NCBI RefSeq assembly: GCF_000517625.1
Contig: NZ_CP007056.1
Location: 496,001 to 560,000 of the forward strand
Source of the DNA: Halostagnicola larsenii XH-48
GTDB taxonomy: Archaea; Halobacteriota; Halobacteria; Halobacteriales; Natrialbaceae
Length of the DNA stretch: 64,000 bases
Direction of reading: 5' to 3'
The notes beneath the pieces are model-generated. The model did no database searches and was not told the DNA's origin. It was given only the letters and a program-made list of their open reading frames with translations. Shown here piece by piece: positions 14,124 to 38,436 of the stretch. Made by a program: the position numbers and the translations under genes. Positions within the stretch are counted from its first letter, which is position 1. Every line of letters starts with the position of its first letter.

Positions 14124-15368
14124 ATGGACATAGCTACGATAAATGGATATCCGCTTTCCTCACCGATCGATCCGGTACAGAAACGTCCGTTCTTCGGCGG
14201 AGAGCGACACCTTCGCAAACGAGATGTCGTTCTCGTCGTCGTCGAGACGCGAGACGGTCGGCAGGGCGTCGCGACGGCGGGCGCGAGCAGTTCCGCAATG
14301 CGCGAGTACTTCGAAGGCGATTCCCAGGGAACGTTCGCAGACATCGTCGAGGACTCGGTTGCAGACGCCCTCGAGGGTGAAACGATCGACGAGATCACCG
14401 ACGCTCACGACCTGCTCGCTGCGACGAATCTCCCCGCCCACCTCGAGACGGAAGCGATTTCGGCGATCGACGTCGCACTGTACGATATCCGCGGAAAGGA
14501 ACTGGGCGCGCCGATATACGAACTGCTGGCAGCGGAGTACGAGAGCGAGCCGACGACCGAGATGCCGCTGTACGCCAGCGCCGGGATGTACATGGAGCCG
14601 GAAGGGTACGTCGAGCAGGCTCGAGCGCTCGAGGAACTGGGCTTTTTCGGCTACAAGTATCGCCCCGGGATCGGTCCCGACGGCGACCGGCGAACGGTCG
14701 ACCTGCTGGCCGAGGCGGTCGACGAAATCGAGCTCATGCTCGACGTGCACACCTGGTGGAAACTCGGCGAATCCTACGGCCGCGAGACGGTCCGAGAGCT
14801 GGTCGAGCACGCCGCCGACCGCGGCGCGTACTGGATCGAGGAACCGGTCGAACCCGCCGATCACGCGGGCTACGTCGAACTGGCAGAAACCGGCGCGCCG
14901 CTGGCCGGCGGGGAAAGCGAGGAATCTCCGGCCGGACTCGTCAAACTCGGCGAGACCGGCGCGGTCGAGTTCCTGCAGGGCGACGTACGCCATCACGAGG
15001 GCTTTACGGGCTGTCGGGACGCAGTCGAGTACTGCGACGGACGCGACGTCGAGTTCGTGCCGCACAACTTCGGTACCTGGCTTGGCCTCCAGGCCAACGC
15101 ACACCTCGTCGCCGCGGCACCGGACGTCACCCTGCTCGAGTACCCCGTCTTCGAGGACGATCCGGCGCTCGCCGAGGCGACGATCGATCCGGGAATGTAC
15201 CCGTTCGATCTCGCGTTCGACATCATCGAGGGGCAACCCGATATCGAAGACGGATACCTGAGCGTTTCGGACGCGCCCGGACTCGGCGTCGAGGTCGACC
15301 TCGACGTGCTCGAAGAGTACCCGTTCGTCGACGGTGCGTGGACGGAGTTCCACTACGACGACGAGTAG
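14124..15368 (+). CDS. enolase-superfamily (mandelate racemase/muconate lactonizing type) sugar-acid dehydratase
   Basis: 414 aa. N-terminal capping domain, then a TIM barrel with the expected acid/base and Mg2+ residues: YKYRPG (KxR in place of the usual KxK), LMLDVHTWW (Asp ligand), WIEEPVEP (Glu), GGESEE (Glu), and FVPHNFGTW (His). The family dehydrates or isomerises aldonates and aldarates in the cytoplasm. It heads the hexuronate block and converges on the KdgD-like gene, 59 bases away. It is longer than the enzyme at 16541 and clearly a different subgroup, so it may take another acid such as galactonate, rhamnonate or glucarate. A TATA box 24-29 bases upstream fixes the start. Confidence 0.85.
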   Translation: MDIATINGYPLSSPIDPVQKRPFFGGERHLRKRDVVLVVVETRDGRQGVATAGASSSAMREYFEGDSQGTFADIVEDSVADALEGETIDEITDAHDLLAATNLPAHLETEAISAIDVALYDIRGKELGAPIYELLAAEYESEPTTEMPLYASAGMYMEPEGYVEQARALEELGFFGYKYRPGIGPDGDRRTVDLLAEAVDEIELMLDVHTWWKLGESYGRETVRELVEHAADRGAYWIEEPVEPADHAGYVELAETGAPLAGGESEESPAGLVKLGETGAVEFLQGDVRHHEGFTGCRDAVEYCDGRDVEFVPHNFGTWLGLQANAHLVAAAPDVTLLEYPVFEDDPALAEATIDPGMYPFDLAFDIIEGQPDIEDGYLSVSDAPGLGVEVDLDVLEEYPFVDGAWTEFHYDDE

Positions 15369-17674: not shown

Positions 17675-17756
17675 CTGGAAAACAGGTTCTGTTGTCGGCA
17701 GCGGAACCGCGCCGCTGGACCGGTATTTTGATAATCTCCCCGACTGGCCTATGTGT

Positions 17757-18593
17757 ATGAACGTACTGGTAACTGGCACCTACGGCCGATGCGGTACCGC
17801 AATCATCGATCACTTACACGACGACGATCGGTACGAGTTTACGTACTATAATCGCTCAGACCGCGAAGAGGGACCCTACAGCGGCTACGATACTGTCGTC
17901 GGCGACATCGCGGACTACGAGACGCTTCGGGACGCCTGCGAGGGGCAAGACGCCATCATCCACCTCGCGGCCTACCCCTACACCGACGGCGACTGGGGCG
18001 ACATCTTCGAACCCAACATCATCGGCATGTACAACGTCCTCGAGGCCGCCCGCGAGGCCGAAGTGGAGTCCATCATTTTCGGGTCGACCAATCACGTGAT
18101 GGGGATGTACGAACTCGAGAACGCCCCCGAAATCTACGAGCGCGATCACGACCTCGTGATCGACCATACCGATCCCGTTCGTCCGGATTCGTACTACGGG
18201 GCCTCCAAGAGCTTCGGCGAGGACCTCGGTCGGTACTACGTCGAGGGCGGCGAGTACCCGAAGCAGTTCTACGCGATCCGGATCTGTAGCGTGCGGATGC
18301 CCGAGTACGACCATCCCTACGGAGACGCCGAAATCCACGTTGCCGAGGGCGAGTTCGAGCGGGGCAGCGACGAGTACGAAGAGCAGGTCGCCCGGATGAA
18401 AGCAACCTGGCAATCCCGCCGTGACTTCGCCCACCAGATCGACTGCTGTCTGCAGGACGACAGCGTCGCGTTCGACGTGTTCAGCGGCGTCAGCGACAAC
18501 CGCCGGCGCTGGTACGACTTGGAGCACGCTCGAGCGCGCATCGGCTACGATCCGCAGGACGACGGCGAGGAGTGGGACGCGCCGCCGGAGTAA
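17757..18593 (+). CDS. udh: uronate dehydrogenase (NAD-dependent, extended SDR fold)
   Basis: 278 aa from MNVLVTGTYGRCG; an ATG two codons upstream is also possible. Rossmann motif TGTYGRCGTA, NAD-binding VVGDIAD and HLAAYPYT, the substrate motif FGSTNHVMGMYE, and catalytic YYGASK (Tyr and Lys). These match bacterial Udh, which oxidises D-galacturonate or D-glucuronate to the aldaro-lactone in the cytoplasm. The genes around it (cycloisomerase, KdgD, metallohydrolase, semialdehyde dehydrogenase) make the oxidative hexuronate route. A second, divergent copy is cut by the right edge of the window. The substrate preference between galacturonate and glucuronate cannot be read from the sequence. 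Confidence 0.88.
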   Translation: MNVLVTGTYGRCGTAIIDHLHDDDRYEFTYYNRSDREEGPYSGYDTVVGDIADYETLRDACEGQDAIIHLAAYPYTDGDWGDIFEPNIIGMYNVLEAAREAEVESIIFGSTNHVMGMYELENAPEIYERDHDLVIDHTDPVRPDSYYGASKSFGEDLGRYYVEGGEYPKQFYAIRICSVRMPEYDHPYGDAEIHVAEGEFERGSDEYEEQVARMKATWQSRRDFAHQIDCCLQDDSVAFDVFSGVSDNRRRWYDLEHARARIGYDPQDDGEEWDAPPE

Positions 18594-18805
18594 GCGGGAT
18601 TTCTCTTCTCCCGGATACTCCGACATGTCCGACACACCAGCCTGCAGATAGGCCCGACACACCAGTCCGCCGATCTGGCGACAGGCCGAGGATGCACGGA
18701 TCGTTCCTGGCACGAACGCGTCGAAAGGTTTAGGCGGGCTCGAGCGGATCGGATTCGTATGGTTCGAACGAGCGGCCGAGCCGACGGACAGTGCCGGGTG
18801 AAACG

Positions 18806-19657
18806 ATGACGATCAACAGCGACTGGGGCAGGTGGTGGACCCGAGAGGACCTGTACGGGCCCTCGGTCGACGGCGTATCGATGTGGTTTCTCGGGGTCAC
18901 CGGCTGGGCGATCAGAACGCCGGAGGCGACGATATTCATCGATCCGTACTTCAGCACCGAGCGGGACCGCGAGTACATCGCCCGGATGCCGCCGGTGCCG
19001 ATGGAGCCCCAGTGGGCGGAATCCTGCGATGGAGTCTTCTGTACGCACGATCACCGCGATCACTTCTGGCCGCCGTCGTTCGGGCCATTGCTGGACCACG
19101 GCGGGTCTGTCCACGCGCCGGCCGAGTGCTACGAGAACCACGACGTGAGCGAGATTCCGACGGATCAGCAGGTAGCCGCCGAACCCGGTGACAGCTACGA
19201 AATCGGCGATCTGACGATCCACATCCGGGACGGCCGCGATCCGGACGCCGACGGCAGCGTCACCTACGTCCTCGAGCACGAGGCGGGGACCATCTTCCAC
19301 GGCGGCGACAACCGTCCGTGCGACGCGTTCTACGATGTCGGCGAGGAGTTCGATATCGACGTGGGGATGCTTTCGTACGGGACCACGGGCCGCCTCTCGG
19401 CCGACAGCGACGCGACTGGCCGGAAACTGTACAACGACGCTACAGACGTGGTCGAGGCCGCGAACGCCCTCGAGCTCGACCGACTGGTGCCGACCCACTG
19501 GCGGCGCTGGCGGTCGATTCAGGCAGATCCCCATGCGCTTTCGACCGCCGCGACGACCTTCGAGTACCCCCGCGTGATCGAAACCGTCGAAGTCGGGGAC
19601 CGGCTTCGGCTCGGCCAGCCCGGCGTAGTGCCGCCGACCCGCCTCGAGGGTGAGTAA
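18806..19657 (+). CDS. UlaG-like metallo-beta-lactamase-fold hydrolase, lactonase candidate
   Basis: 283 aa from the ATG at 18806, which has GGGTGA just upstream; an ATG five codons earlier is possible. Metal ligands are clear: CTHDHRDHFW (HxHxDH), then HGGDNRPCD and a late PTHWRRW His. The fold matches UlaG, the L-ascorbate-6-phosphate lactonase, and other metal-dependent lactone hydrolases. Placed after udh and before the semialdehyde dehydrogenase, it is a good candidate for opening the aldaro-lactone or keto-deoxy-lactone formed in hexuronate oxidation. No signal peptide. The lactonase role is inference; the fold assignment is firm. Confidence 0.75.
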   Translation: MTINSDWGRWWTREDLYGPSVDGVSMWFLGVTGWAIRTPEATIFIDPYFSTERDREYIARMPPVPMEPQWAESCDGVFCTHDHRDHFWPPSFGPLLDHGGSVHAPAECYENHDVSEIPTDQQVAAEPGDSYEIGDLTIHIRDGRDPDADGSVTYVLEHEAGTIFHGGDNRPCDAFYDVGEEFDIDVGMLSYGTTGRLSADSDATGRKLYNDATDVVEAANALELDRLVPTHWRRWRSIQADPHALSTAATTFEYPRVIETVEVGDRLRLGQPGVVPPTRLEGE

Positions 19658-19851: not shown

Positions 19852-21306
19852 CTAGTAGTTCATGTAGACCGTCTTCGTCGACGTGAAGAAGGCCAGACCG
19901 GCGTCACCCTGTTCGCGGTAGGTGTCCGTCGAAGACTGTTTGTAACCGCCGAATGGGACGTGTAGCTCGAGGCCGGTCGTCTTCTCGTTGACCTTCGCGA
20001 CGCCGGATTCGACGTTTTCGGCGAACTGGTTGGCTTCAGAGAGATCCTGCGTGATAATGCTCGCCGAGAGGCCGTAGTCGACGTCGTTTGCCACCTCGAG
20101 GCCCTCCTCGAAGCTGCTGACCTTCAACACTGCCAGCACCGGACCGAAGACCTCCTCCTGAGCGATGCGCATGTCGTTCGTCACGTCAGAGAAGACGGCT
20201 GGTTCGACGTAGTAGCCGTCGTCGTACTCCCCGCCAGTGAGTCGCTCGCCACCGGTCTCGAGGGTCGCACCGTCTTCTTCCGCCGCGATATCGACGTACT
20301 CGAGGGTCCCGTCCAATTCGCTTTGCGTGACGTGAGGGCCCATGTCGACGTCTTCGAGCCCGGAGCCGATCTCGATCGATTCGGCGTAGTCGACGATGCC
20401 GGCGACGAACTCGTCGTAAACGTCTTCGTGGACGATTGCCCGAGAGCAGGCGGTACAGGCCTGACCCGTGACGCCGAACGCGCCCGCGCCGACGATGTCG
20501 ACGGCTTCGCCGACGTCTGCGCTTGGCATCACAACTGTCGGATTCTTCCCGCCCATCTCACACTGGACGCGCTTGAGGTCGTCCGCGGCGGCCTGCGCGA
20601 CGTGGGTTCCGACGGCGGTCGATCCCGTAAAGGAGACGGCGTCGACGCCCTCGTGATCGGTAAGGACGCCGCCGGCTTCGCTCCCGGAGCCGGTGACGTA
20701 GTTCGCGACGCCGTCCGGCAATCCCGCCTCGTCGAGCGCCTCGAGTAACTTCCAGGCGACGGTCGGGGCCGCCGAGGCGGGTTTGAGGACGGCCGTGTTA
20801 CCGGCCGCGAGGGCGGGAGCGAGTTTCCACGCCGGAATGGCGATGGGGTAGTTCCACGGCGTAATCAACGCGACGGTTCCCAGCGGTTCGTGTTTGGTGT
20901 AGAGTTCTTTGTCCGTGCCGCTGGGTGACTTGACAGTGCCGCCGAGGTCGCTGGCTTTCTGTGCGTAGTAATAAAATATATCGATGGCTCGCTGGACCTC
21001 GCCGCCAGCTTCGCCGAGCGTCTTGCCCTCCTCGCGGGTCAGCGTCTCGGCGAGTTCGTCGCGCTGGTCCTCGAGGATCTGTGCCGTTTCCTGCAGAATC
21101 GCTCCCCGTTCCGGGCCGGGGGTCGACGACCACTCGTCCTCTGCGGCGACGGCTGCCTCGACCGCTTGCTCGGCGTCTTCGGCGGTCGACGACTGAAACT
21201 CGCCGACGACTTCGTCAGTATTTGCGGGATTTAGTACCTCAAACGAGTCTCCGGAACGTGATTCGACCCACTCTCCGTCGATGTAGTTACGGTGTACTGT
21301 CGGCAT
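19852..21306 (-). CDS. aldehyde dehydrogenase, probable alpha-ketoglutarate semialdehyde dehydrogenase (hexuronate branch)
   Basis: 484 aa from MPTVHRNYIDGEW. ALDH superfamily: ITPWNYP, FTGSTAVG (NAD binding), CEMGGKNP (catalytic Glu region), GQACTACSRA (nucleophile Cys) and EEVFGPVLAV. It is closely similar along its length to the xacF product at 39262, including shared stretches such as GEVQRAIDIFYYYA and VNEKTTGLELHVPFGG. That paralogue oxidises alpha-ketoglutarate semialdehyde to alpha-ketoglutarate. This copy sits in the hexuronate block and probably performs the same last step there. Its promoter region faces the gene at 21445. Confidence 0.82.
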   Translation of the reverse strand: MPTVHRNYIDGEWVESRSGDSFEVLNPANTDEVVGEFQSSTAEDAEQAVEAAVAAEDEWSSTPGPERGAILQETAQILEDQRDELAETLTREEGKTLGEAGGEVQRAIDIFYYYAQKASDLGGTVKSPSGTDKELYTKHEPLGTVALITPWNYPIAIPAWKLAPALAAGNTAVLKPASAAPTVAWKLLEALDEAGLPDGVANYVTGSGSEAGGVLTDHEGVDAVSFTGSTAVGTHVAQAAADDLKRVQCEMGGKNPTVVMPSADVGEAVDIVGAGAFGVTGQACTACSRAIVHEDVYDEFVAGIVDYAESIEIGSGLEDVDMGPHVTQSELDGTLEYVDIAAEEDGATLETGGERLTGGEYDDGYYVEPAVFSDVTNDMRIAQEEVFGPVLAVLKVSSFEEGLEVANDVDYGLSASIITQDLSEANQFAENVESGVAKVNEKTTGLELHVPFGGYKQSSTDTYREQGDAGLAFFTSTKTVYMNY

Positions 21307-21411
21307 TCGAACTAGTGATTTCGCTCTACCCAATACCAAGATTCGTCTTGCGGCAATATTTTCACCTGCGATGCGAACGATCCGAAGCGGATCGGCAGCA
21401 CAAACCCTAAC

Positions 21412-21424
21412 TAATTTATACAGG
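21412..21424 (+). promoter_or_regulatory. TATA promoter identical in core to the one at 14092
   Basis: TAATTTATACAGG starts 33 bases before the ATG at 21445 and repeats the 13-base core seen before the sugar-acid dehydratase gene at 14124. It supports 21445, not 21424, as the start. Confidence 0.5.
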
Positions 21425-21444
21425 TGAGACGAATCAACGTGGTA

Positions 21445-21735
21445 ATGGGTTCCACGCAGCGTTCGAGCGATCCGGATGAGATGTCTCGAGTACAAGAAGT
21501 GGGTTCGACGATCCGTGAAACAGTCGTCGAACCGGTGTATAACGTTCTCGAGCCAGTTCTCGAACCGCTTGCCGGCTCTGTCCTGTTAAAGCTCGCGGCA
21601 ATGGGGATGCTCCTGTTCGCCCTCGGTGCACTCCGCAGCGTCGGAGTCTGGGCCGCGATCCTCGCTGTCTGGGGATTCGGACTCATGCTCGTCGGCTTCG
21701 GGTGCTACGGACTGATCTGGTTGCAACGCAACTGA
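21445..21735 (+). CDS. small two-helix membrane protein, unknown function
   Basis: 96 aa from MGSTQRSSDPDEM. An acidic N-terminus is followed by a short proline/glutamate-containing stretch and two membrane helices (around SVLLKLAAMGMLLFALGAL and WAAILAVWGFGLMLVGFG). No family recognised. A TATA box at the leaderless distance and in-frame acidic codon use support a real gene. It shares its promoter core with the sugar-acid dehydratase at 14124 and is divergent from the semialdehyde dehydrogenase, so it may be co-regulated with hexuronate genes. Function unknown. Confidence 0.6.
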   Translation: MGSTQRSSDPDEMSRVQEVGSTIRETVVEPVYNVLEPVLEPLAGSVLLKLAAMGMLLFALGALRSVGVWAAILAVWGFGLMLVGFGCYGLIWLQRN

Positions 21736-21847: not shown

Positions 21848-22282
21848 TTAGCGCTGCATGAGTTGGGAAACGTTTTGCTCGCCCGCACGGCGCTCAAGCG
21901 AGAGTCCCTCTATTTTCCGGATCGTTATTTCCCCGAGGACGTTGACCTCACAGCCTTCCTCGAGGTGGCCGCCGACGGTTCGGTCGCCGTCGAACGCGGT
22001 CACGTGAAGGTGGGGTTCGCCGTTGGCGATAACGCCGTTGATGTCGGTCACCTCCCAGGCACCCTCGAGCTCGAGGTCGACGTTCCGATCGGACTGCTCG
22101 TCGGGGAGATCAGTCCGATCGACGTAGTGGATATTCAGCGTGCTGAAGGTGCCGATCCCCGTGACGACCGCGCCGGTGTCGACCGCGTGTTCCTCGCAGG
22201 CGCGTTCGATCGACTCGAGGGCCATGTCGCCACGGTCGAGGCGAACGATAACGTGTCCGTCGCTGGATTCGAACGATTCCAT
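21848..22282 (-). CDS. PPC/DUF296-domain protein
   Basis: 144 aa from MESFESSDGHVIVRLDRGD. The PPC (DUF296) fold is shown by HVIVRLDRG, the GAVVTGIGTFSTL strand, and GEPHLHVTAFDGD with two metal-like His residues, followed by GGHLEEGCEVNVL. Prokaryotic single-domain members form trimers; some are called DNA-binding by homology to plant AT-hook proteins, but this one has no AT-hook. It is divergent from a Gfo/Idh/MocA gene across 120 bases. The role is unknown; regulatory or small-molecule binding are both possible. Confidence 0.8.
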   Translation of the reverse strand: MESFESSDGHVIVRLDRGDMALESIERACEEHAVDTGAVVTGIGTFSTLNIHYVDRTDLPDEQSDRNVDLELEGAWEVTDINGVIANGEPHLHVTAFDGDRTVGGHLEEGCEVNVLGEITIRKIEGLSLERRAGEQNVSQLMQR

Positions 22283-22402
22283 GACCGTCTGTGAAACCGC
22301 CGGCGGAATAAACCTTGACACTGCGGCAGTAGTGGGCGCGCCGGCGAACAAACTCGAAGGGGCCAAGCTTGAAGTGCAATCGAGCAGTCGGTTCACTATC
22401 GC

Positions 22403-23398
22403 ATGGAACCTATCAGGTACGGAATCGTCGGTGCGACGGGATTCGGAGCCAATCACGCGCAGGCGGTCGCGGCCGTAGACGGTGCCGAGGTCGTCGCGGG
22501 AACGGCGCGAACCGCGGACTCGGTCGCATCGTTCGAAGCGGATCACGACGCGGCGGGATACACGGACTACGAGGAACTGCTCGAGTCCGAGTCGCTCGAT
22601 GCGATCAGCATCTGTACGCCGTCGGGCACCCACGCCGAAATCGCGGTGGCCGCCGCCGAAGCCGGGGTTCACGTCCTCTCGGAGAAACCGCTCGACGTCT
22701 ACGTAGAGCGCGTCGACCGGATGATCGAGGCCGCGGATCGAAACGACGTTCGCCTCGGTGGGATCTTCCAGCGACGGTTCACGCCGGAACGTTGGACCGC
22801 CCGCCAGTGGGTCGAGGAAGGCCGGTTCGGCGACCTGCTGCTCGCTGATACGGCGATCAAGTGGCACCGCCCACAGCGCTACTACGAGGATCACTGGCAC
22901 GGAAGCCGCGACCTCGACGGCGGCGTTCTCATCCAGCAGGCGATCCACTTCGTCGACCTCCTCCAGTGGCTGGGCAGCGATATCGAGCGCGTAACTGCGG
23001 ACACGAAAACGGTGGCACACGAGATGGAGTGCGAAGACGTTGCCACCGTCAGCGTTCGGTTCGAAAACGGCGCTCAAGGTACCATCGTTGCGACGACCGG
23101 CGTGAAAGGCGGACGAGAGCGCGTCGAACTGAACGGAACAGCCGGCTCGTACAACTCCGGCACGTTCGTCCTCGAGGACGAAATTGTCGAGCCGACGCTC
23201 GAAGAACCGCCGTGTGGGACGGGGCTCGAGGGGCAGATTCGAGACTTTATCGCAGCAGTCCGCGAGGACCGCGAACCGATCGTTAGCGGACGGGATGCCC
23301 GCAAAGCGGTCGAAGTCGTGCTCGCTTCCTACGCATCGGCCACGCTCGATCGGCCGGTACGAGTCGACGAGGTCCGTGACGTGGCAGAACACACCTAG
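22403..23398 (+). CDS. Gfo/Idh/MocA family sugar oxidoreductase
   Basis: 331 aa. N-terminal Rossmann motif GIVGATGFGANHA, then SICTPSGTHAE, the conserved SEKPLDV lysine, and a C-terminal domain with GGVLIQQAIHFVDLLQWL whose His is the usual catalytic residue. Family members oxidise or reduce free sugars using NAD(P). It is distinct from the xylose dehydrogenase at 35376 and from the pair at 8060-9760. Neighbours are the PPC protein and the multidomain lyase, so the substrate is likely a pectic monosaccharide, not determined. The upstream region is GC-rich and lacks a strong TATA box. Confidence 0.8.
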   Translation: MEPIRYGIVGATGFGANHAQAVAAVDGAEVVAGTARTADSVASFEADHDAAGYTDYEELLESESLDAISICTPSGTHAEIAVAAAEAGVHVLSEKPLDVYVERVDRMIEAADRNDVRLGGIFQRRFTPERWTARQWVEEGRFGDLLLADTAIKWHRPQRYYEDHWHGSRDLDGGVLIQQAIHFVDLLQWLGSDIERVTADTKTVAHEMECEDVATVSVRFENGAQGTIVATTGVKGGRERVELNGTAGSYNSGTFVLEDEIVEPTLEEPPCGTGLEGQIRDFIAAVREDREPIVSGRDARKAVEVVLASYASATLDRPVRVDEVRDVAEHT

Positions 23399-23617
23399 GA
23401 GACATAACACAGAATACCGTTCGGGATCGTCCTAGGGAGATTCTGGGAGACAAAAACCATCTGAGTTCGATTGTCAGTAGAGCTACTCGTTCTCGAATTC
23501 AGAAGTGGTCGAGTTTAGATCGTATACGTTCAGCCGGTAGAAGGACTCAATCCGGAGATTAGAGAGAAATCTAATTCAAACAACATATACGAAGGCCAGA
23601 GAATCGAGAAGAAAAGA

Positions 23618-23658: not shown

Positions 23659-25866
23659 ATGGCACACAAAAGACGGTCAGTCCTTCGAGCGATCGGTGTG
23701 AGTACCCTCGGGATCACTGCGGCGGCGTTGTCCAGCGGAACGGCCGCGGCAGCGACCATCATCACGATTCGCGGCGGTGGAACGGATATCTGGAACACGG
23801 AAGACGCGTTCCACTTCTATTCGGACGAGGTCAGCGGGGACTTCGACGTCGAAGTACGGAACACCTACCTCGAGAATACGGACGCCAACGCGAAAACGGG
23901 GATCATGTTCCGGGAGTCGATGGATCCGGCGTCGAAGAACGTGATGCTTCGGCGCACGCCAAACGGCGAGGCGTCGCTGCAGTGGCGACCCGAAGACGGA
24001 GCCGAAACGGTCAGCACGACATCGGGGGGCGAAGACGAGAGCGAGGTCGATGGCGGCAGCTTAGAGGCCGAGTGGCTGCGCCTGCGCCGAAGCGGCGACA
24101 CCATCGAAGCGTACGGCTCGAGCGATGGCGACGACTGGACGCTGATCGCCGACATCGATACGGACCAACTCGAGTTGAGCGACGATGCGTACGTCGGCAT
24201 ACCGGTCACGAGCCACGACACAGGAACACTCTGTACCGCAGAAGTGCGCGATCTGTCGGGAATCGACCCGAACGATAGCCGCGATATCGGCGATATCGAA
24301 GCCAATGGTGACGTCGATGTCGCGGAGGGCGTCCCGTTCGTATCGACCGGCGACGCGACCGACGTGACGGCTACGTCGGCGACCGTAGGCGGTGAACTAA
24401 CCGACCTTGGCGGTGCCGACTCGGCCGAGTGTTACGTCGAGTATCGGGAGGTCCCGACCGAGGCGTGGACGGAAACCGAGAGACAGACGCTAGCGGAACC
24501 CGGCGAGTTCCAGGTCCACCTCGAGGACCTCACGAGCAGGCGCTACTACGAGTACCGTGCGGCTATCGAGACCAGCGACGGCGACGGCGCAAACGGCTCG
24601 TCGGAAACGTTCGGGACACCGAGTCGCTGGAACGGCCCAACGATCCGAAAGGGGCCGGACAGCGCGTCGAACGTCGATCTCGCGGACGGGTTCGCAGATC
24701 CCGCACCGTGGTTGGACGACGACACGCCCGTCATTAAAATACGCGAGCCGACGCGGCAACAGCTATCGGCCGCACTCAGCGTCGACGGGCCGCGCCTCGT
24801 CGTCTTCGAAACGAGCGGCGTGATCGACCTCGAGCAACAGCGCCTGACGGTGACGGGCGACGAACTGTATATCGCCGGTCAGACGGCCCCATCGCCGGGC
24901 ATCACGCTCGTTCAGGGTGATCTCTGGATCGACGCCAACGACTGCGTGATTCAACACATCAGGGTCCGGCCGGGCGATGCCAACCTGACAGAAGAGAGCG
25001 ACTGGGAGCCCGACGCGATCAGAACGGGAGACGGGACCGAGAACAACGTCATCGATCACTGCACGACGACCTGGGGCGTCGACGAGAACCTTTCGGTCGG
25101 CTACGAGACGCAGAATACGACGGTGTCGAACTGCCTGGTCGCGGAACCGCTGCAGGACGCGACCCACCACAAGGGCGACCACGGGTACGGCTCGCTGATC
25201 GGCGACGATTCGGAGAACGTCACCCTCGCGGGGAACGTCTGGGCGCACAACTACGACCGGAATCCGCGGCTCAAAGAGGGGACCCGATCCGTCGTCGCGA
25301 ACAACGTCATGTACCACTATCGGGACGGCATCTGGATGGATCCCGACACGGAGGCCAGCATCGAGGGCAACGTCTTCAGGCGGCCGGTCAGCGACCAGCC
25401 AAATATCTTCGGCGACGGAACTGCGGCCGTCGTCGACAACGTCCTCGAGGACGCGGACAACCCGATAGTCGGCGACGGCATCTCGGAGGTCGACTCGCGA
25501 CCGCTGTGGCCGGAGGAACTCGACGTGCTACCGTCGGAAGCCGTCCTCGAGCACAACCTCAAACACGTCGGCGCACGTCCTGCCGACCGAACGGAGGCGG
25601 ACGAACGCGTGCTCGAGCAGCTCGTTACGGGCGAGGGATCGTATATCGATAGCCAGGAGGAGGTCGGCGGCTACCCCGACCTCGAGGAGAACACGTGGCC
25701 GATTCGCGTGCCCCAGAGCGCGACGCACGCGTGGCTCCGTGCGAAAGCTCGGTTCGTCGAAAAGTCAAACTGGTTTGGGCCGGGGCTGGGTGACGGACGC
25801 GGGCATCGAGACGACCACGGACATCGTGGGTCGGACAATCGATCCCGCGAGCATCCCAAACATTAA
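23659..25866 (+). CDS. Tat-exported multidomain pectate lyase-like protein (YesU-like + one FN3-like + PL1)
   Basis: 735 aa. Tat signal RRSVLRAIG with cleavage near residue 31. Residues 33 to about 200 match the concanavalin-like domain of the 790-aa paralogue (GTDIWNTEDAFHF, AKTGIMFRES, YVGIPVTSH). One FN3-like repeat spans about 227-322. The PL1 beta-helix follows from about residue 340, with IAGQTAPSPGITL, VIDHCTTTWGVDENLSV (Asp retained) and YDRNPRLKEG. After the lyase core is an unusual His/Asp/Arg/Gly-rich tail of about 29 residues (GRGHRDDHGHRGSDNR). The gene after it, 26 bases away, encodes an unrecognised protein and is probably co-transcribed. Function: extracellular pectate cleavage, inferred from the family. 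Confidence 0.87.
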   Translation: MAHKRRSVLRAIGVSTLGITAAALSSGTAAAATIITIRGGGTDIWNTEDAFHFYSDEVSGDFDVEVRNTYLENTDANAKTGIMFRESMDPASKNVMLRRTPNGEASLQWRPEDGAETVSTTSGGEDESEVDGGSLEAEWLRLRRSGDTIEAYGSSDGDDWTLIADIDTDQLELSDDAYVGIPVTSHDTGTLCTAEVRDLSGIDPNDSRDIGDIEANGDVDVAEGVPFVSTGDATDVTATSATVGGELTDLGGADSAECYVEYREVPTEAWTETERQTLAEPGEFQVHLEDLTSRRYYEYRAAIETSDGDGANGSSETFGTPSRWNGPTIRKGPDSASNVDLADGFADPAPWLDDDTPVIKIREPTRQQLSAALSVDGPRLVVFETSGVIDLEQQRLTVTGDELYIAGQTAPSPGITLVQGDLWIDANDCVIQHIRVRPGDANLTEESDWEPDAIRTGDGTENNVIDHCTTTWGVDENLSVGYETQNTTVSNCLVAEPLQDATHHKGDHGYGSLIGDDSENVTLAGNVWAHNYDRNPRLKEGTRSVVANNVMYHYRDGIWMDPDTEASIEGNVFRRPVSDQPNIFGDGTAAVVDNVLEDADNPIVGDGISEVDSRPLWPEELDVLPSEAVLEHNLKHVGARPADRTEADERVLEQLVTGEGSYIDSQEEVGGYPDLEENTWPIRVPQSATHAWLRAKARFVEKSNWFGPGLGDGRGHRDDHGHRGSDNRSREHPKH

Positions 25867-25892
25867 TTCGTCGGAACGACCCTGCATTGGGT

Positions 25893-27803
25893 ATGTTCGA
25901 CATCGAGGCGAGCCGTTCGCTCACCCGGCCTCCCGAGTGGGCGGCGTTACAGCGGACGCTGTTCGAGACGATGGCAACCAGCGTCGACCGATTCGTCGAT
26001 GAGTACTTCGACGAGGACGGCGAGCCCTACTGGCCGCCCGAGGACCACGTCGGCGTCGACGGCTTCGACGACGTGATCGAGGGCTTTTACAACTGGCCGC
26101 TGGTGTACGCGATGGGCGGTGACGAGCGCTTTCTCGAGCACGCTCGAGCGGCCTACGAGAGGGCGCTCCGGCGCGGCAGCGAGACCGAGACGCCGTTCGG
26201 CCACCCCATGGTCGTCGACGAGTTCGAGCAGTGTCGCGACTGGTTTCACATGGGCGAGGGGAACCTCTTTACGTACAACATGGGCCTTGCGGCACCCGGC
26301 GACGAGACCGTCGTCGACCGGGCCGAACGGTTCGCACAGTTGTACCTCGATGACGCTGAAGTGAACAACTACGACGGCGAGAAACGGCTCGTTCGCGGCC
26401 CCATGAGCGGGAGTATGGGGCCGAATTTCTGTGACTTCGCCGCCTACGAACACCACCCTTACGGCGCGGACTACCGCTGGGCGCGCCACGGGCTTCCCTG
26501 GCGGGACCTCGAGTTCGACGAGGCCACAGACCTGCTCGAGTCCGAGAACGAAAAGCGGCTGTTCGAGGTGCTCAACGAACGGTGTGCGAAGGGTGATATC
26601 CCGCTGAATCTCAACATCACGAGCCTGATGACCAACGCGTACCTCCACACCGGCGACGACCGCTATCGCGAGTGGGTCACCGACTACTTAGAGGCCTGGC
26701 GCGAGCGAACGGCGGAAAACGACGGGATCATCCCCGACAACGTCGGCCGGTCTGGCGAGATCGGCGAGTACATCGGCGGCAAGTGGTACGGCGGCTACTA
26801 CGGCTGGTCGTGGGGCGGCTGGCACTACGTCGGAATCGGGCCCACGGTGGCCGCGGAAAACGCCGTGTTACTCGAGGGTGATCGGGAGTACCTCGAGTTC
26901 CCGCGCTCGCAACTCGACGTGCTGATCGAAAACGGAATCGAAGTCAGCGAGGACGCCGTCCACGACACCCTCTATATCCCGCACAAGTACGGCGACCCCG
27001 GCGATTATCACTACGATGCCTCGGGCGTGCTCACCGAAGACGATGGCGAGGTGTACTGGCGAGATGGCTGGTACGAGTTCCAACCACATCAGGACGATCC
27101 GTACGCGTTCCACCTCTGGTATATGTCCCTCTCCGAAGCGGACCGCGAACGCGTCGACCGGCTTCGCGACTGGGGCAGTCGGGACTGGAAACAGGTCGAT
27201 TTCCGCCCGTCGAACAAACACGGGGCCGGCCAGGAGTACGCCTGGCTGGCGTATCTCGACGGCGACTTTCCAGCCTATCCCGAGCGCATCATGGAGGCGA
27301 ACCACGCCCACGTCCAGCAGCACCGCGAACTCATGCGGACGGAAGGCGGCCTTCCCGACGACGTCGACGAGGACTACCTCCGCGACCGAAACCCGGTCTT
27401 TCACCGCGGGCTCTTACAGCTCACGATGGGAGCCCCCCAGCCCGTCTACTACGGCGGCCTCGTGATGGCCCAGGTTCGCCACTTCGACCTCGAGCGCGAG
27501 CGCCCGGGACTCCCGGCTGGCGTCTCGGCGCTGGTCACGGACGTCACACGCGAGGGAATCGACCTGACGCTCGTCAACGGCGGCGGAGCCGACCGCGAAC
27601 TGATCGTGCAAGCCGGCGCGTACGGCGAACACGAATTCACCTCCCTCGAGCACGATGGAGAGCGCGGTCACCCCGAGTCGAACGCGATTCGAGTCTCGCT
27701 TCCCAGCGGGACTCGCGTCTCGCTTTCGGCCGCCCTCGAGCGCTTCGTGAACGACCCGGCCTACGAACCGCCGTGGAGCGATTCGCAGGCTCGGGTCAGG
27801 TAG
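25893..27803 (+). CDS. large soluble protein of unrecognised family, probable alpha/alpha-barrel carbohydrate enzyme
   Basis: 636 aa from MFDIEASRSL, no signal peptide. I do not recognise a named family. The middle has repeated helix-pair patterns with GDERFLEHARAAYERAL and GDDRYREWVTDYLEAW, of the sort found in (alpha/alpha)6 glycosidases and lyases. There are aromatic/glycine-rich loops (GGKWYGGYYGWSWGGWHY) and conserved-looking charged spots (EFEQCRDWFHMGEGN, PHKYGDPGDYHYD). The last 110 residues look like a beta-sandwich. It begins 26 bases after the multidomain lyase gene and is therefore likely in the same transcript, suggesting action on lyase products. A hydrolase, unsaturated-uronide hydrolase or epimerase are possible; none is shown. 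Confidence 0.65.
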   Translation: MFDIEASRSLTRPPEWAALQRTLFETMATSVDRFVDEYFDEDGEPYWPPEDHVGVDGFDDVIEGFYNWPLVYAMGGDERFLEHARAAYERALRRGSETETPFGHPMVVDEFEQCRDWFHMGEGNLFTYNMGLAAPGDETVVDRAERFAQLYLDDAEVNNYDGEKRLVRGPMSGSMGPNFCDFAAYEHHPYGADYRWARHGLPWRDLEFDEATDLLESENEKRLFEVLNERCAKGDIPLNLNITSLMTNAYLHTGDDRYREWVTDYLEAWRERTAENDGIIPDNVGRSGEIGEYIGGKWYGGYYGWSWGGWHYVGIGPTVAAENAVLLEGDREYLEFPRSQLDVLIENGIEVSEDAVHDTLYIPHKYGDPGDYHYDASGVLTEDDGEVYWRDGWYEFQPHQDDPYAFHLWYMSLSEADRERVDRLRDWGSRDWKQVDFRPSNKHGAGQEYAWLAYLDGDFPAYPERIMEANHAHVQQHRELMRTEGGLPDDVDEDYLRDRNPVFHRGLLQLTMGAPQPVYYGGLVMAQVRHFDLERERPGLPAGVSALVTDVTREGIDLTLVNGGGADRELIVQAGAYGEHEFTSLEHDGERGHPESNAIRVSLPSGTRVSLSAALERFVNDPAYEPPWSDSQARVR

Positions 27804-29833: not shown

Positions 29834-32053
29834 TCAGTCGCGAACGAACGTCACACGAACGATCGAAAACGGCGGGACCGTGACGGTTGCGGAACCGCCT
29901 TCGACGGCGACCGAGTCTCGCGACGGAGCGACGTTTTCGGGATCCGCGAACGTGTTTTCCTCGGCCATCGTTTCGCCGGCGAGCGTCGTCACCGTCGCCT
30001 CCGGAACGGGATCGAATCCGTCCTCGAGATCGATCGTGACCGCGATTTCGTCCGCGTTCGCATCGCGGTGGACTAACTCGATGAACAGTTCGTCGCCCGA
30101 CCGACTCGACGCCGCGAGCGGATCGAGAATTGGGACATCGGAAACAGGCGGAAGTTCGCCGAAGAATTCGGCGGTATCGGTCGCGAACGCCGTCTCCGTG
30201 TCGTAGGTGTCACACGTCAGTTCGGTCTCGAGCGGCGTCCCGCCGAACAGCGAGGCACCCATTTGGTGGTAGTAGTAACACGGGTCTGCCCAAACGCGTT
30301 CGCGGTGTTTGCGAAGCCCGCCGCCGTGATTGCCGGCACCCGAGTGGGTAAACATGTCGACGGCACCCGAACGGACGCTCTCGTGGACGAACGTGGCGTC
30401 GTAGATTGCCTCCGATATCGATCTGTTCGTCGGAAGTACGGGCGGGCCAGCTTGGTCCGTCCACTGCTCACGGTCGGGGAACGTGAAAAGCTGTAGTTCG
30501 GTAAGCGCGATCTGTGGATCGTCGATGCCAGCCTCTCGCATCGCCTCGCGTACGTCAGCGTACTCCTCCATCACCCGACCGGCGAGGGCCATGTGACTGT
30601 TGTACAGTTCCCGCTGGTCGACGTCGGGGCCGACGGGTGTTCCGACGAGGACGTGGTCGGTGAGCCACTCGACTTGATCGCCGGCCGTCGACAGGACCGG
30701 GTCGTTCCAATCGGTCAGGCGATTTCCGCAGGCCAACACTTCGATAGCGCCGTCCACGTCGACCATCGCCTCGTGGAATCTTCGATACCTGTCCGCGTAG
30801 CCCGCGGGCGTCGTCCAGGTGACCTGCCACGGACCGTACACCTCGTTGCCGACCTCCCAGTAGGTCACGTCGAACGGCTCCGGATGGCCGTGTTCAGCCC
30901 GAAGCGCTCCCATCTCGGTCTCCGTCGATCCGTTGCAGTACTCGACCCACCGGGCGGCCTCCGCGGGTGAGCCGTTTCCCGCGTTGACGCAGATCATCGG
31001 CTCACAGCCGATCCGCTCGCAGAACTCGAGGAACTCCACCGTCCCAAACAAATTCGTCTCGAGGCCGTCCCAGGCGGGATTCGGCTTCGTCGGCCGCTGT
31101 TCGGCCGGACCGACCCCGTCGCGCCAGCGATAGCCCGAGACGAAGTTGCCGCCGGGCCACCGGAAGAGCGGTAGTTCCGCCTCGCGCAGGAACTCGATAA
31201 CCTTCGGGTCCGCCGTCCCGACGTGATCGGCCGGATACAACCGCGCCATATCGAGCACGAGATTCGCCGGTGAATCGGTCGTAAGGCTGAATGCGAATAG
31301 CGTCTCCGGCGACGCCTCGAGATCGTCGGGAAGCTCGAGTTCGAAGTCGACGCTCTCCCACGATTTATCTACGGACACTGTGGTGTCGGCGAGGGCGGTC
31401 TCGAGGCGACCCGAGGGGCCGACTTCGTGGATGGCTACTGTCACCGTGGTTGGCGTCGCCGCACGCGCCGTCAGCGATCCCTCGAATTGACGGGTTCGAT
31501 GGGTCGGCAGGGAACACCACTGCGCGATGCCAGCGGAGTGTGCGAGCGATCGGTCGGCGGCCGATTCGGTGGGATGGGAGGTTCCGCTCGCCGTTATCTC
31601 GACTCGTTGAGCCCGGTCGCCAGCGATTCCGACGTCCGGACTCGTCGTGACGGTGACATCGTTGCCGCCGTCATCACCGAACGGAAACCACCAGAGTGCG
31701 GTCGCACCCCGGTAGGACTCGCGGAGTCTATCCGCGTCGGGATAGCCTCGAGCGTCGGCGTAGGCGTCGATTCGGTCGGCTTGCGTGTCGGAATCGTGGA
31801 CGGCTGGACGTCCGCCATCGACGGACGGGTGTTCGACCTGAAACTTCCAATCGCCGAAGGTCGGGTTGTGGAGGATCTGAGCCGTAAAGGAGTTCTTCGC
31901 GTTTCGCGTCGAGTAGAGGTGTTCGCCGAACTTGCCGAACAGTTTCGGGTCGACAGGATCCGCATCGGTCGTCGTCGGGTCGACGGTGACCGTCGCCTCG
32001 TCGGGATCCGACTCAGTCGATGTTCGGTGTGTTAGCAATTGCTTATCCGTCAT
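29834..32053 (-). CDS. GH51-type alpha-L-arabinofuranosidase with inserted carbohydrate-binding-like domain
   Basis: 739 aa from MTDKQLLTHRT at 32051-32053; an ATG two codons upstream exists, but the TATA element TAATAAATT (32076-32084) fits this one better. GH51 retaining enzyme: FGEHLYST start, then a beta-sandwich insertion of roughly 150 residues, then the barrel with LFRWPGGNFVSGYRW, acid/base Glu in WEVGNEVYGP, and nucleophile Glu in IALTELQLF. A C-terminal beta-sandwich follows. It removes alpha-L-arabinofuranosyl groups, typical for arabinan or arabinoxylan. No signal peptide, so it acts inside the cell on imported oligomers. A second GH51 without the insertion is at 42909. Confidence 0.87.
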   Translation of the reverse strand: MTDKQLLTHRTSTESDPDEATVTVDPTTTDADPVDPKLFGKFGEHLYSTRNAKNSFTAQILHNPTFGDWKFQVEHPSVDGGRPAVHDSDTQADRIDAYADARGYPDADRLRESYRGATALWWFPFGDDGGNDVTVTTSPDVGIAGDRAQRVEITASGTSHPTESAADRSLAHSAGIAQWCSLPTHRTRQFEGSLTARAATPTTVTVAIHEVGPSGRLETALADTTVSVDKSWESVDFELELPDDLEASPETLFAFSLTTDSPANLVLDMARLYPADHVGTADPKVIEFLREAELPLFRWPGGNFVSGYRWRDGVGPAEQRPTKPNPAWDGLETNLFGTVEFLEFCERIGCEPMICVNAGNGSPAEAARWVEYCNGSTETEMGALRAEHGHPEPFDVTYWEVGNEVYGPWQVTWTTPAGYADRYRRFHEAMVDVDGAIEVLACGNRLTDWNDPVLSTAGDQVEWLTDHVLVGTPVGPDVDQRELYNSHMALAGRVMEEYADVREAMREAGIDDPQIALTELQLFTFPDREQWTDQAGPPVLPTNRSISEAIYDATFVHESVRSGAVDMFTHSGAGNHGGGLRKHRERVWADPCYYYHQMGASLFGGTPLETELTCDTYDTETAFATDTAEFFGELPPVSDVPILDPLAASSRSGDELFIELVHRDANADEIAVTIDLEDGFDPVPEATVTTLAGETMAEENTFADPENVAPSRDSVAVEGGSATVTVPPFSIVRVTFVRD

Positions 32054-32075
32054 ATCCATACATTTCCGCCGGCAG

Positions 32076-32084
32076 TAATAAATT
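32076..32084 (-). promoter_or_regulatory. TATA box of the GH51 gene
   Basis: Minus strand AATTTATTA lies 23-31 bases before the ATG at 32053 (but only 17-25 before the alternative ATG at 32059), so it helps choose the start. Confidence 0.45.
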
Positions 32085-32185
32085 CGTTCGCCCAAACGAC
32101 CGTCGGTGTCTCGAGGTCGTCGAAGACGACCCGTCGGTCTTCGTTTGAGGATCCTATCCGGACTCGAGCGGACTGGCAGCGGCTC

Positions 32186-37200: not shown

Positions 37201-38436
37201 TTACGCTTCGTCGAAGAGGGTTTCGCCTTCAACCATGTGTTCCTCGACGGCGTCGAGATCCAGCGTCAATCCGAGACCTGGTTTTTCGGGGACTTCCATA
37301 CGGCCGTTTTCGATCAATCCGTCTTCTTCGACGAGATCCTCCCACCAGCCGAGTTGGTAGGAGTGATACTCGAGCGCGAGCGAGTTCGGAATCGCCGCGG
37401 CGACCTGCGCGGAGGCCATCGTCCCGATCGGCGATGAGACGTTGTGCATCGCGACGGGGACGTAGTACAGATCTGCGAGGTCCGCGATCTTTCTGGTCTC
37501 GCGCATCCCGCCTACGCGCGGGAGGTCGGGTGCGATGATGTCGATCGACTGGTTCTCGATGAGTCGGCGCTGCCCGTGGGTCCGATAGACGTTCTCGCCG
37601 ACCGTGATCGGCGTCGTCGTCGACTGCGTGACCTCCTGTTGAACGTCGTGGTTTTCCGGCGGGACCGGATCCTCGAGCCACCAGACGTCGTAGGCCTCGA
37701 GTTCGCGTGCCAGCCGTTTCGCGGAGCCGGCGGAGAACGACCAGTGACAGTCGAAGGCGACATCCGCCCGGTCGCCGACCCGTTCGGTAACCTGCCGGAC
37801 GATTTCGACCTTGTGGTCGATTTCGGGGCCGCGAAGGTGGCGGTTCGCACGATCCTTCTCGTGGCCCGAGGGAACGTCCAGATCGAACTTGATGGCGTCG
37901 TAGCCGAGTTCCTCGACTACGCGTTCGCCCTCGTCGGCACAGGCGACGGGGTTGGCCTCGTCTTCGGTGTGAAGGTCGCAGTAAACCCGTACCTCGTCGC
38001 GGTACTTGCCGCCGACGAGCTGATAGGCGGGAAGCTCGAGGATCTTGCCGGCCACGTCGTGCAGCGCGATTTCGATGCCCGAGATGGCCGAGATTACCTT
38101 GCCCGAGATCGAGCCCTCGCCGGACATCTTCTGGATGAGGTGTTCGTACAGCCGGTCGATGTCGAGTGGGTTCTCGCCGATCAGGAACGGCGCCATCCGT
38201 TCGATGATCGCATCGTCGCCGCCGCCCCAGTAGGATTCACCCGTTCCAACGAGCCCGGCGTCGGTGTAGACGCGGACGAGAATCCAGGGGTAGTTGCCGT
38301 CGACCATCGTGGTCTGAACGTCAGTAATCTCGACGTCGCGTGGACCTCGGTCGGCGGTCAGCTCCATCGTCTCCGAGGACAGGTCGCGCATCGTGTACTC
38401 TGCGTTCGGATCGCGTAGCGTCCGGTAGTTCGGCAT
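37201..38436 (-). CDS. xacD: xylonate/arabinonate dehydratase, XacD (enolase superfamily)
   Basis: 411 aa. MR/MLE enzyme with KFDLD (the KxD pattern of pentonate dehydratases), VAFDCHWSFS (Asp), WLEDPVPPEN (Glu), TVGENVYRTH (Glu) and VAMHNVSSPIG (His). It agrees with the Haloferax XacD, which dehydrates D-xylonate and L-arabinonate to 2-keto-3-deoxypentonate. Located between xacA and, across the strand-switched ThuA gene, xacF. A GATATACC element lies 23-30 bases before the start on the minus strand. Longer N-terminus (MPNYRTLRDPNAEY) than the other two enolase-family enzymes in the window. Confidence 0.88.
   Translation of the reverse strand: MPNYRTLRDPNAEYTMRDLSSETMELTADRGPRDVEITDVQTTMVDGNYPWILVRVYTDAGLVGTGESYWGGGDDAIIERMAPFLIGENPLDIDRLYEHLIQKMSGEGSISGKVISAISGIEIALHDVAGKILELPAYQLVGGKYRDEVRVYCDLHTEDEANPVACADEGERVVEELGYDAIKFDLDVPSGHEKDRANRHLRGPEIDHKVEIVRQVTERVGDRADVAFDCHWSFSAGSAKRLARELEAYDVWWLEDPVPPENHDVQQEVTQSTTTPITVGENVYRTHGQRRLIENQSIDIIAPDLPRVGGMRETRKIADLADLYYVPVAMHNVSSPIGTMASAQVAAAIPNSLALEYHSYQLGWWEDLVEEDGLIENGRMEVPEKPGLGLTLDLDAVEEHMVEGETLFDEA

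Follow-up and report, generated by a model that had tools for sequence, protein, structure and literature searches.

What is the role of the 636-residue protein whose gene lies directly downstream of a secreted pectate-lyase-like protein in Halostagnicola larsenii XH-48, and is this protein tied to the degradation of pectin? A preliminary description of the locus, made from the sequence alone, had left the protein without a family. The features of the gene and its immediate upstream region are given below in coordinates of the window, by which the whole analyzed stretch of 64,000 nucleotides is meant.

23659..25866, + strand: pectate-lyase-like protein, secreted (Tat signal), N-terminal part DUF1349-like (Pfam/NCBIfam, signal)
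25855..25867, + strand: promoter-like element CCCAAACATTAAT, at -38 to -26 relative to the target ATG (haloarchaeal upstream comparison)
25893..27803, + strand: target gene, unnamed (alpha/alpha)6-barrel family, 636 aa, predicted cytoplasmic (ORF, homologues, model)
25935..27428, + strand: predicted barrel part, residues about 15-512, helix pairs (predicted secondary structure, fold matches)
26775..26822, + strand: GGKWYGGYYGWSWGGW loop, residues 295-310 (alignment)
27465..27752, + strand: predicted C-terminal beta-domain, residues about 525-620 (predicted secondary structure, alignment)

The reading frame of the target is intact, with an ATG start and 636 codons followed by a stop, and the N-termini of relatives coincide with this ATG and not with a possible alternative start, a TTG 6 bases upstream. 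The originally reported gap of 26 bases to the lyase gene was reproduced (stop of the upstream frame at 25866, target ATG at 25893). The product is acidic (D+E 19%, K+R 9%), and an alignment of 24 relatives at 36-83% identity shows conservation over its full length, so that this is no chance reading frame; the early view of a real, acidic gene is borne out. The profile searches that had been proposed as a check returned nothing for the target in Pfam or NCBIfam at E<=1, in line with the initial statement that no named family fits, and gave no clear match to a characterised non-carbohydrate family. Relatives of the target likewise had no significant match in Pfam; alginate lyase PF05426, touched by one member of the alignment at a non-significant E of 0.12, was rejected. 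PDB sequences yielded nothing, either with the target as a single query or with a 101-member profile, and the sole hits of an earlier PDB profile search, a designed helical protein and taxadiene synthase, did not rise above chance. In annotated plasmid records the homologues are labelled 'hypothetical protein'.

By sequence comparison, the target is a member of an undescribed family that is common to haloarchaea and several bacterial phyla; it is the sequence family that is new, the kind of enzyme (alpha/alpha-barrel carbohydrate enzyme) being already known. An initial scan found 30 loci, mostly in Halobacteria, with single loci in Paenibacillus, Latescibacterota and Acidobacteriota. Amongst the sampled genomes, the family was present in 31 of 391 Halobacteria (28 with an intact copy and three, G143, G163 and G270, with fragments), 52 of 64 Latescibacterota (as many as 15 matches in a genome), 33 of the 104 genomes from the Paenibacillus koleovorans family and 5 of 247 Acidobacteriota, and across 398 genomes of the Paenibacillus phylum it was found only in the starting genome. 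Further members at 28-36% identity were identified in plasmid-collection records of Streptomyces, Nonomuraea, Asticcacaulis and Sphingobium, and large plasmids carry many copies of the target. In a quick, midpoint-rooted tree, the haloarchaeal members form one clade (support 0.91) beside a mixed Latescibacterota/Paenibacillaceae clade, which suggests a single transfer of the family into Halobacteria. Some of the Latescibacterota copies stand in tandem (L029, L209), within a large expansion of paralogues.

The structure of the target was modeled with AlphaFold2 from an alignment of 101 sequences (pLDDT 92.0, pTM 0.94), superseding an earlier model from 25 sequences that had poor loops. The model consists of helix pairs in residues 15-512 and a beta-domain in residues 525-620. 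Fold comparison with the PDB gave 23 matches at E<=0.001, every one of them an (alpha/alpha)6-barrel sugar enzyme, from families GH127, GH47, GH76, GH146 and the AGE/YihS/cellobiose epimerases, as the alpha/alpha-barrel reading of the preliminary description had anticipated. No close PDB chain was found among these fold matches, and a viral structure library gave nothing significant. Since even the best matches have low TM-scores, no higher than 0.37 by query and about 0.5 by target, the comparison supports the barrel class and not a particular reaction or membership of any matched family. At the level of fold class, the model thus supports an (alpha/alpha)6 barrel with a C-terminal beta-domain.

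Eight polar barrel residues (D59, E63, H119, E122, N159, D235, Y265 and R272) are unchanged in 101 of 101 aligned sequences and were also kept in all five sequences outside the alignment, from Actinomycetota and Alphaproteobacteria. The four acids amongst them, D59, E63, E122 and D235, provide the conserved acidic residues that had been named beforehand as support for a barrel enzyme, and they extend beyond the haloarchaeal homologues. Additionally, W298, Y303, G304 and W305 in the GGKWYGGYYGWSWGGW loop are nearly invariant, and D532 and H580 of the beta-domain are invariant. D59/E63, H119/E122, D235 and the W298-W305 loop are located at or just before predicted helix starts, a placement in the model that would be expected of an active site at the mouth of the barrel.

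Pectin or galacturonate genes were found within about 10 kb of 26 of the 28 haloarchaeal loci; recurring neighbors identified with Pfam and NCBIfam are an enolase-type dehydratase, a DHDPS-type KdgD, GH4, GH28, ThuA, IclR and GFO/IDH/MocA proteins, and annotated records additionally name pectate lyases and a transporter. Most intact haloarchaeal copies belong to one 40-kb island with lyases, GH4, a transporter and galacturonate-oxidation genes. In H. larsenii XH-48, GH28, ThuA, IclR, KdgD, lyases and a transporter are encoded just upstream of the window, which itself contains the following further genes.

14124..15368, + strand: enolase-superfamily sugar acid dehydratase (MR_MLE)
17751..18593, + strand: NAD-dependent epimerase-type protein (cluster c17), a candidate uronate dehydrogenase (island neighbors, homologues)
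19852..21495, - strand: 2,5-dioxovalerate dehydrogenase, a late step of oxidative uronate/pentose degradation (NF052305, 858 bits, cut-off 750)
22403..23398, + strand: GFO/IDH/MocA-type oxidoreductase, conserved in other islands (translation, homologues; named from its Rossmann-type N-terminus, no profile scan)
29834..32095, - strand: alpha-L-arabinofuranosidase-like protein, a possible pectin side-chain enzyme (Pfam/NCBIfam)
37201..38436, - strand: enolase-superfamily galactonate/gluconate-type dehydratase

Two other frames of the window were noted. A long frame at 21848-23410 (- strand) with a C-terminal PCC domain looks mis-extended: in relatives the protein is only about 150 aa long, and the N-terminal part of the frame is antisense to the conserved GFO/IDH/MocA-type gene. 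A 288-aa protein at 18791-19657 (+ strand), metallo-beta-lactamase-like in appearance and with an HDHRDH motif, occurs in two other loci only, at about 80% identity.

Each of the 28 genomes in which the target is intact gave a strong GH28 match (E<1e-37), as against 5 of the 360 that lack the target (Fisher 6e-38); by genus the counts were 13 of 13 versus 4 of 73 (3e-12). These statistics are inflated by shared ancestry. The two genes are on one contig within about 42 kb in most genomes, and no signal peptide was seen in the associated GH28. The three genomes with target fragments also have no strong GH28 match, and this observation, combined with the patchy pattern by genus, argues that the link between GH28 and the target is real. 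A ThuA-like clade (>=73% identity) likewise accompanies every one of the 28 intact targets, but several genomes that lack the target have it too. Judged by co-occurrence, the signal-less GH28 and the ThuA-like protein are tighter partners of the target than the lyase. In four islands with otherwise the same genes the target is absent, which weighs against the role proposed below.

The available part of the 2011 description of the H. turkmenica pectin island names PL1, PL2 and polygalacturonase genes and makes no mention of the target protein (PMC3102087). When tested, isolates of haloarchaea that carry pectin lyase genes failed to grow on pectin (PMC9726719), a puzzle that bears on the true substrates of these islands; a strain with such lyase genes, AArc-m2/3/4 (locus L023), carries the target gene. 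A literature search on PL2 and haloarchaeal oligogalacturonate metabolism found nothing useful.

The preliminary description had also regarded the target as translationally linked to the adjacent lyase, but neither a translational nor an operon link to it was supported. The lyase gene encodes a 735-aa product with the Tat-type signal MAHKRRSVLRAIGVSTLG at its N-terminus and scores 236 bits against pectate lyase PelZ, below the cut-off of 840. Direct adjacency to a lyase is not the rule, the nearest neighbor elsewhere being KdgD, ThuA, IclR or another gene. The CCCAAACATTAAT element overlaps the stop codon of the lyase gene, and in most haloarchaeal relatives, across genera, a CCCAAATATTMAT-type element occupies a constant position, from about 38 to about 26 bases ahead of the ATG, whichever gene lies upstream. 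A TATA/BRE element of a leaderless haloarchaeal transcript is expected at this distance from the start codon. The target gene is therefore likely to be transcribed from a promoter of its own, an argument against its being translationally coupled to the lyase. Exact copies of the CCCAAACATTAAT element number only one per locus.

As stated initially for the target, no signal peptide was seen in the haloarchaeal members; these, the Paenibacillaceae and most Latescibacterota members start directly at the conserved N-terminus. Signal peptides are present in the acidobacterial members, a few Latescibacterota and both alphaproteobacterial members (Asticcacaulis and Sphingobium). Enzymes acting on imported oligosaccharides are commonly cytoplasmic in monoderms and exported in diderms, and the presence of signal peptides in diderms and their absence from monoderms thus fit an oligosaccharide-processing enzyme.

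Uronate, pectin and other sugar genes were found near bacterial as well as archaeal members, and the concern that homologues might never occur near sugar genes did not materialize. Neighbors in Paenibacillus include aldo/keto reductase, GH88-type, amidohydrolase and beta-helix genes, and those in Latescibacterota include 2-hydroxyacid dehydrogenase, HpcH/HpaI aldolase, GH130-like and DUF4432 genes; a GH78 gene is also near bacterial members. In Asticcacaulis, an MFS transporter gene abuts the target homologue, with kdgD 1.6 kb and dgoD 5.5 kb away. The proximity of the bacterial paralogues, up to 15 per Latescibacterota genome, to varied sugar genes suggests that the substrate may differ by clade.

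The reading that we favor, with a probability of about 0.57, is that the target is a cytoplasmic, end-acting enzyme that trims imported oligogalacturonides in a haloarchaeal pectin (homogalacturonan) island. Secreted lyases would cut the homogalacturonan polymer outside the cell, an ABC transporter would import the oligogalacturonides, and the target, together with the signal-less GH28 and often GH4, would trim these from an end to monomers, which would enter the oxidative galacturonate route by way of an enolase-type dehydratase, KdgD and 2,5-dioxovalerate dehydrogenase. Hydrolysis or hydration by D59, E63, E122 or D235 appears more likely than lyase chemistry through H119, Y265 or R272, and action on unsaturated pectate-lyase products, as the preliminary description had it, is possible. 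Catalysis, the oligogalacturonide substrate, the end-wise action and the chemistry are what we infer, and family, predicted fold, conserved residues and context are what was found.

An unlikely alternative, though the strongest, is that the target is an exolytic polysaccharide lyase, a functional counterpart of the cytoplasmic PL2, which would act on imported oligogalacturonides by beta-elimination through H119, Y265, R272 and N159, invariant His, Tyr, Arg and Asn residues that could serve such chemistry. PL2 exopolygalacturonate lyase is, like the target, a helical-barrel enzyme of the same haloarchaeal islands. PL2 genes were found in three of the four islands without the target (G311, G379 and G099) and PL2 remnants beside the target in three Natrialba genomes, as if the two were interchangeable. 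However, intact PL2 and intact target occur together in at least four genomes (G117, G180, G356 and G378), by which mutual exclusion is ruled out, and in one more, G375, the PL2 copy is interrupted by a stop codon; these observations cover the locus stretches examined. Moreover, PF06917 (PL2) gave no match to the target family (hhalign probability 0.4%), and no PL2 structure was among the 50 best fold matches of the target model. Within the haloarchaeal pectin islands, PL2 (PF06917) genes are located at L223:2988-4844, L225:5328-6878, L227:1684-3246 and L236:13181-14737; decayed remnants adjoin the target in Natrialba at L002, L003, L022 and L237; and a stop-containing copy is found at L261.

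A glycosidase that acts on some other part of pectin or plant glycans (rhamnogalacturonan, arabinan or galactan) and is inherited along with pectin islands is less probable still. The best fold match (E 7e-5) is to the beta-L-arabinofuranosidases of GH127/GH146, which share an (alpha/alpha)6 barrel and a C-terminal beta-domain with the target; GH78, GH130-like and GH88 genes flank bacterial members, and the arabinofuranosidase-like gene of the window is 2 kb from the target. Nevertheless, the match has a TM-score of about 0.3 and 10% identity, and no GH127 sequence match was obtained in Pfam or in the PDB profile search. GH127 catalysis employs a cysteine-metal site, whereas Cys occurs in at most 25 of 101 members at any alignment column, leaving the target without a conserved Cys. 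The association with GH28 in haloarchaea also points to galacturonan.

An AGE-type sugar isomerase or epimerase acting on released uronate or keto-sugars is very unlikely, even though the best fold matches include AGE, YihS and cellobiose 2-epimerase. AGE enzymes have two catalytic histidines, whereas the target lacks this pair, H119 being its sole invariant barrel His, and has no Pfam match to the AGE superfamily; in addition, the signal peptides of the diderm members would be unusual for a monomer isomerase. GH47, GH76 and AGE/cellobiose epimerase all share the (alpha/alpha)6 barrel (TM about 0.5 by target length) but have no Pfam or PDB sequence match to the target, which has an extra beta-domain and different invariant residues. 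Most improbable is a target without a tie to pectin, carried by chance in plasmid-borne clusters, since, although large plasmids, on which unrelated sugar genes accumulate, carry many of the copies, the 28 intact haloarchaeal copies, spread over 13 genera, are without exception accompanied by a single GH28 type and a single ThuA clade, and uronate genes surround distant bacterial members.

The closest known systems are thus GH127, GH47 and AGE by fold and, likely, PL2, GH88/105 and PL22 by role. GH88/GH105 unsaturated uronyl hydrolases act on unsaturated uronic acid oligomers and, like the target, have a helical barrel, and a GH88-type gene adjoins some bacterial members; however, PF07470 (GH88/GH105) gave no match to the target family (hhalign probability 2%), and many genomes possess both. 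GH88 was not found in the searched stretches of the islands without the target. PL22 oligogalacturonate lyase, a beta-propeller, is a candidate functional equivalent in intracellular oligogalacturonide breakdown but differs in that PF14583 (PL22) has no sequence match to the target family. GH88/105 or PL22 is present in most haloarchaeal genomes with the target; six of 31, five of them with an intact copy, have neither a PF07470 nor a PF14583 match. In those five, lyase products would need another enzyme, for which the target, GH28 and GH4 are all candidates, and from this genome survey outright replacement of GH88/105 or PL22 by the target is a possibility.

If the target does trim imported oligogalacturonides, it may, as we suggest tentatively, represent a new archaeal and bacterial enzyme family that removes terminal galacturonyl units, including unsaturated ones, with a site unlike those of GH88, GH105, PL2 and PL22, and supplies the missing cytoplasmic step of pectate-lyase catabolism in haloarchaea without intact copies of those enzymes. 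The occurrence of the family with sugar-acid and pectin-degrading genes suggests that it is probably a missing step in the breakdown of small pectin fragments. The family is unnamed in Pfam and NCBIfam, yet most of the Latescibacterota sampled and a third of the genomes from one Paenibacillus family have it, frequently in numerous copies; it would close a gap in how uronic acid polymers are degraded.
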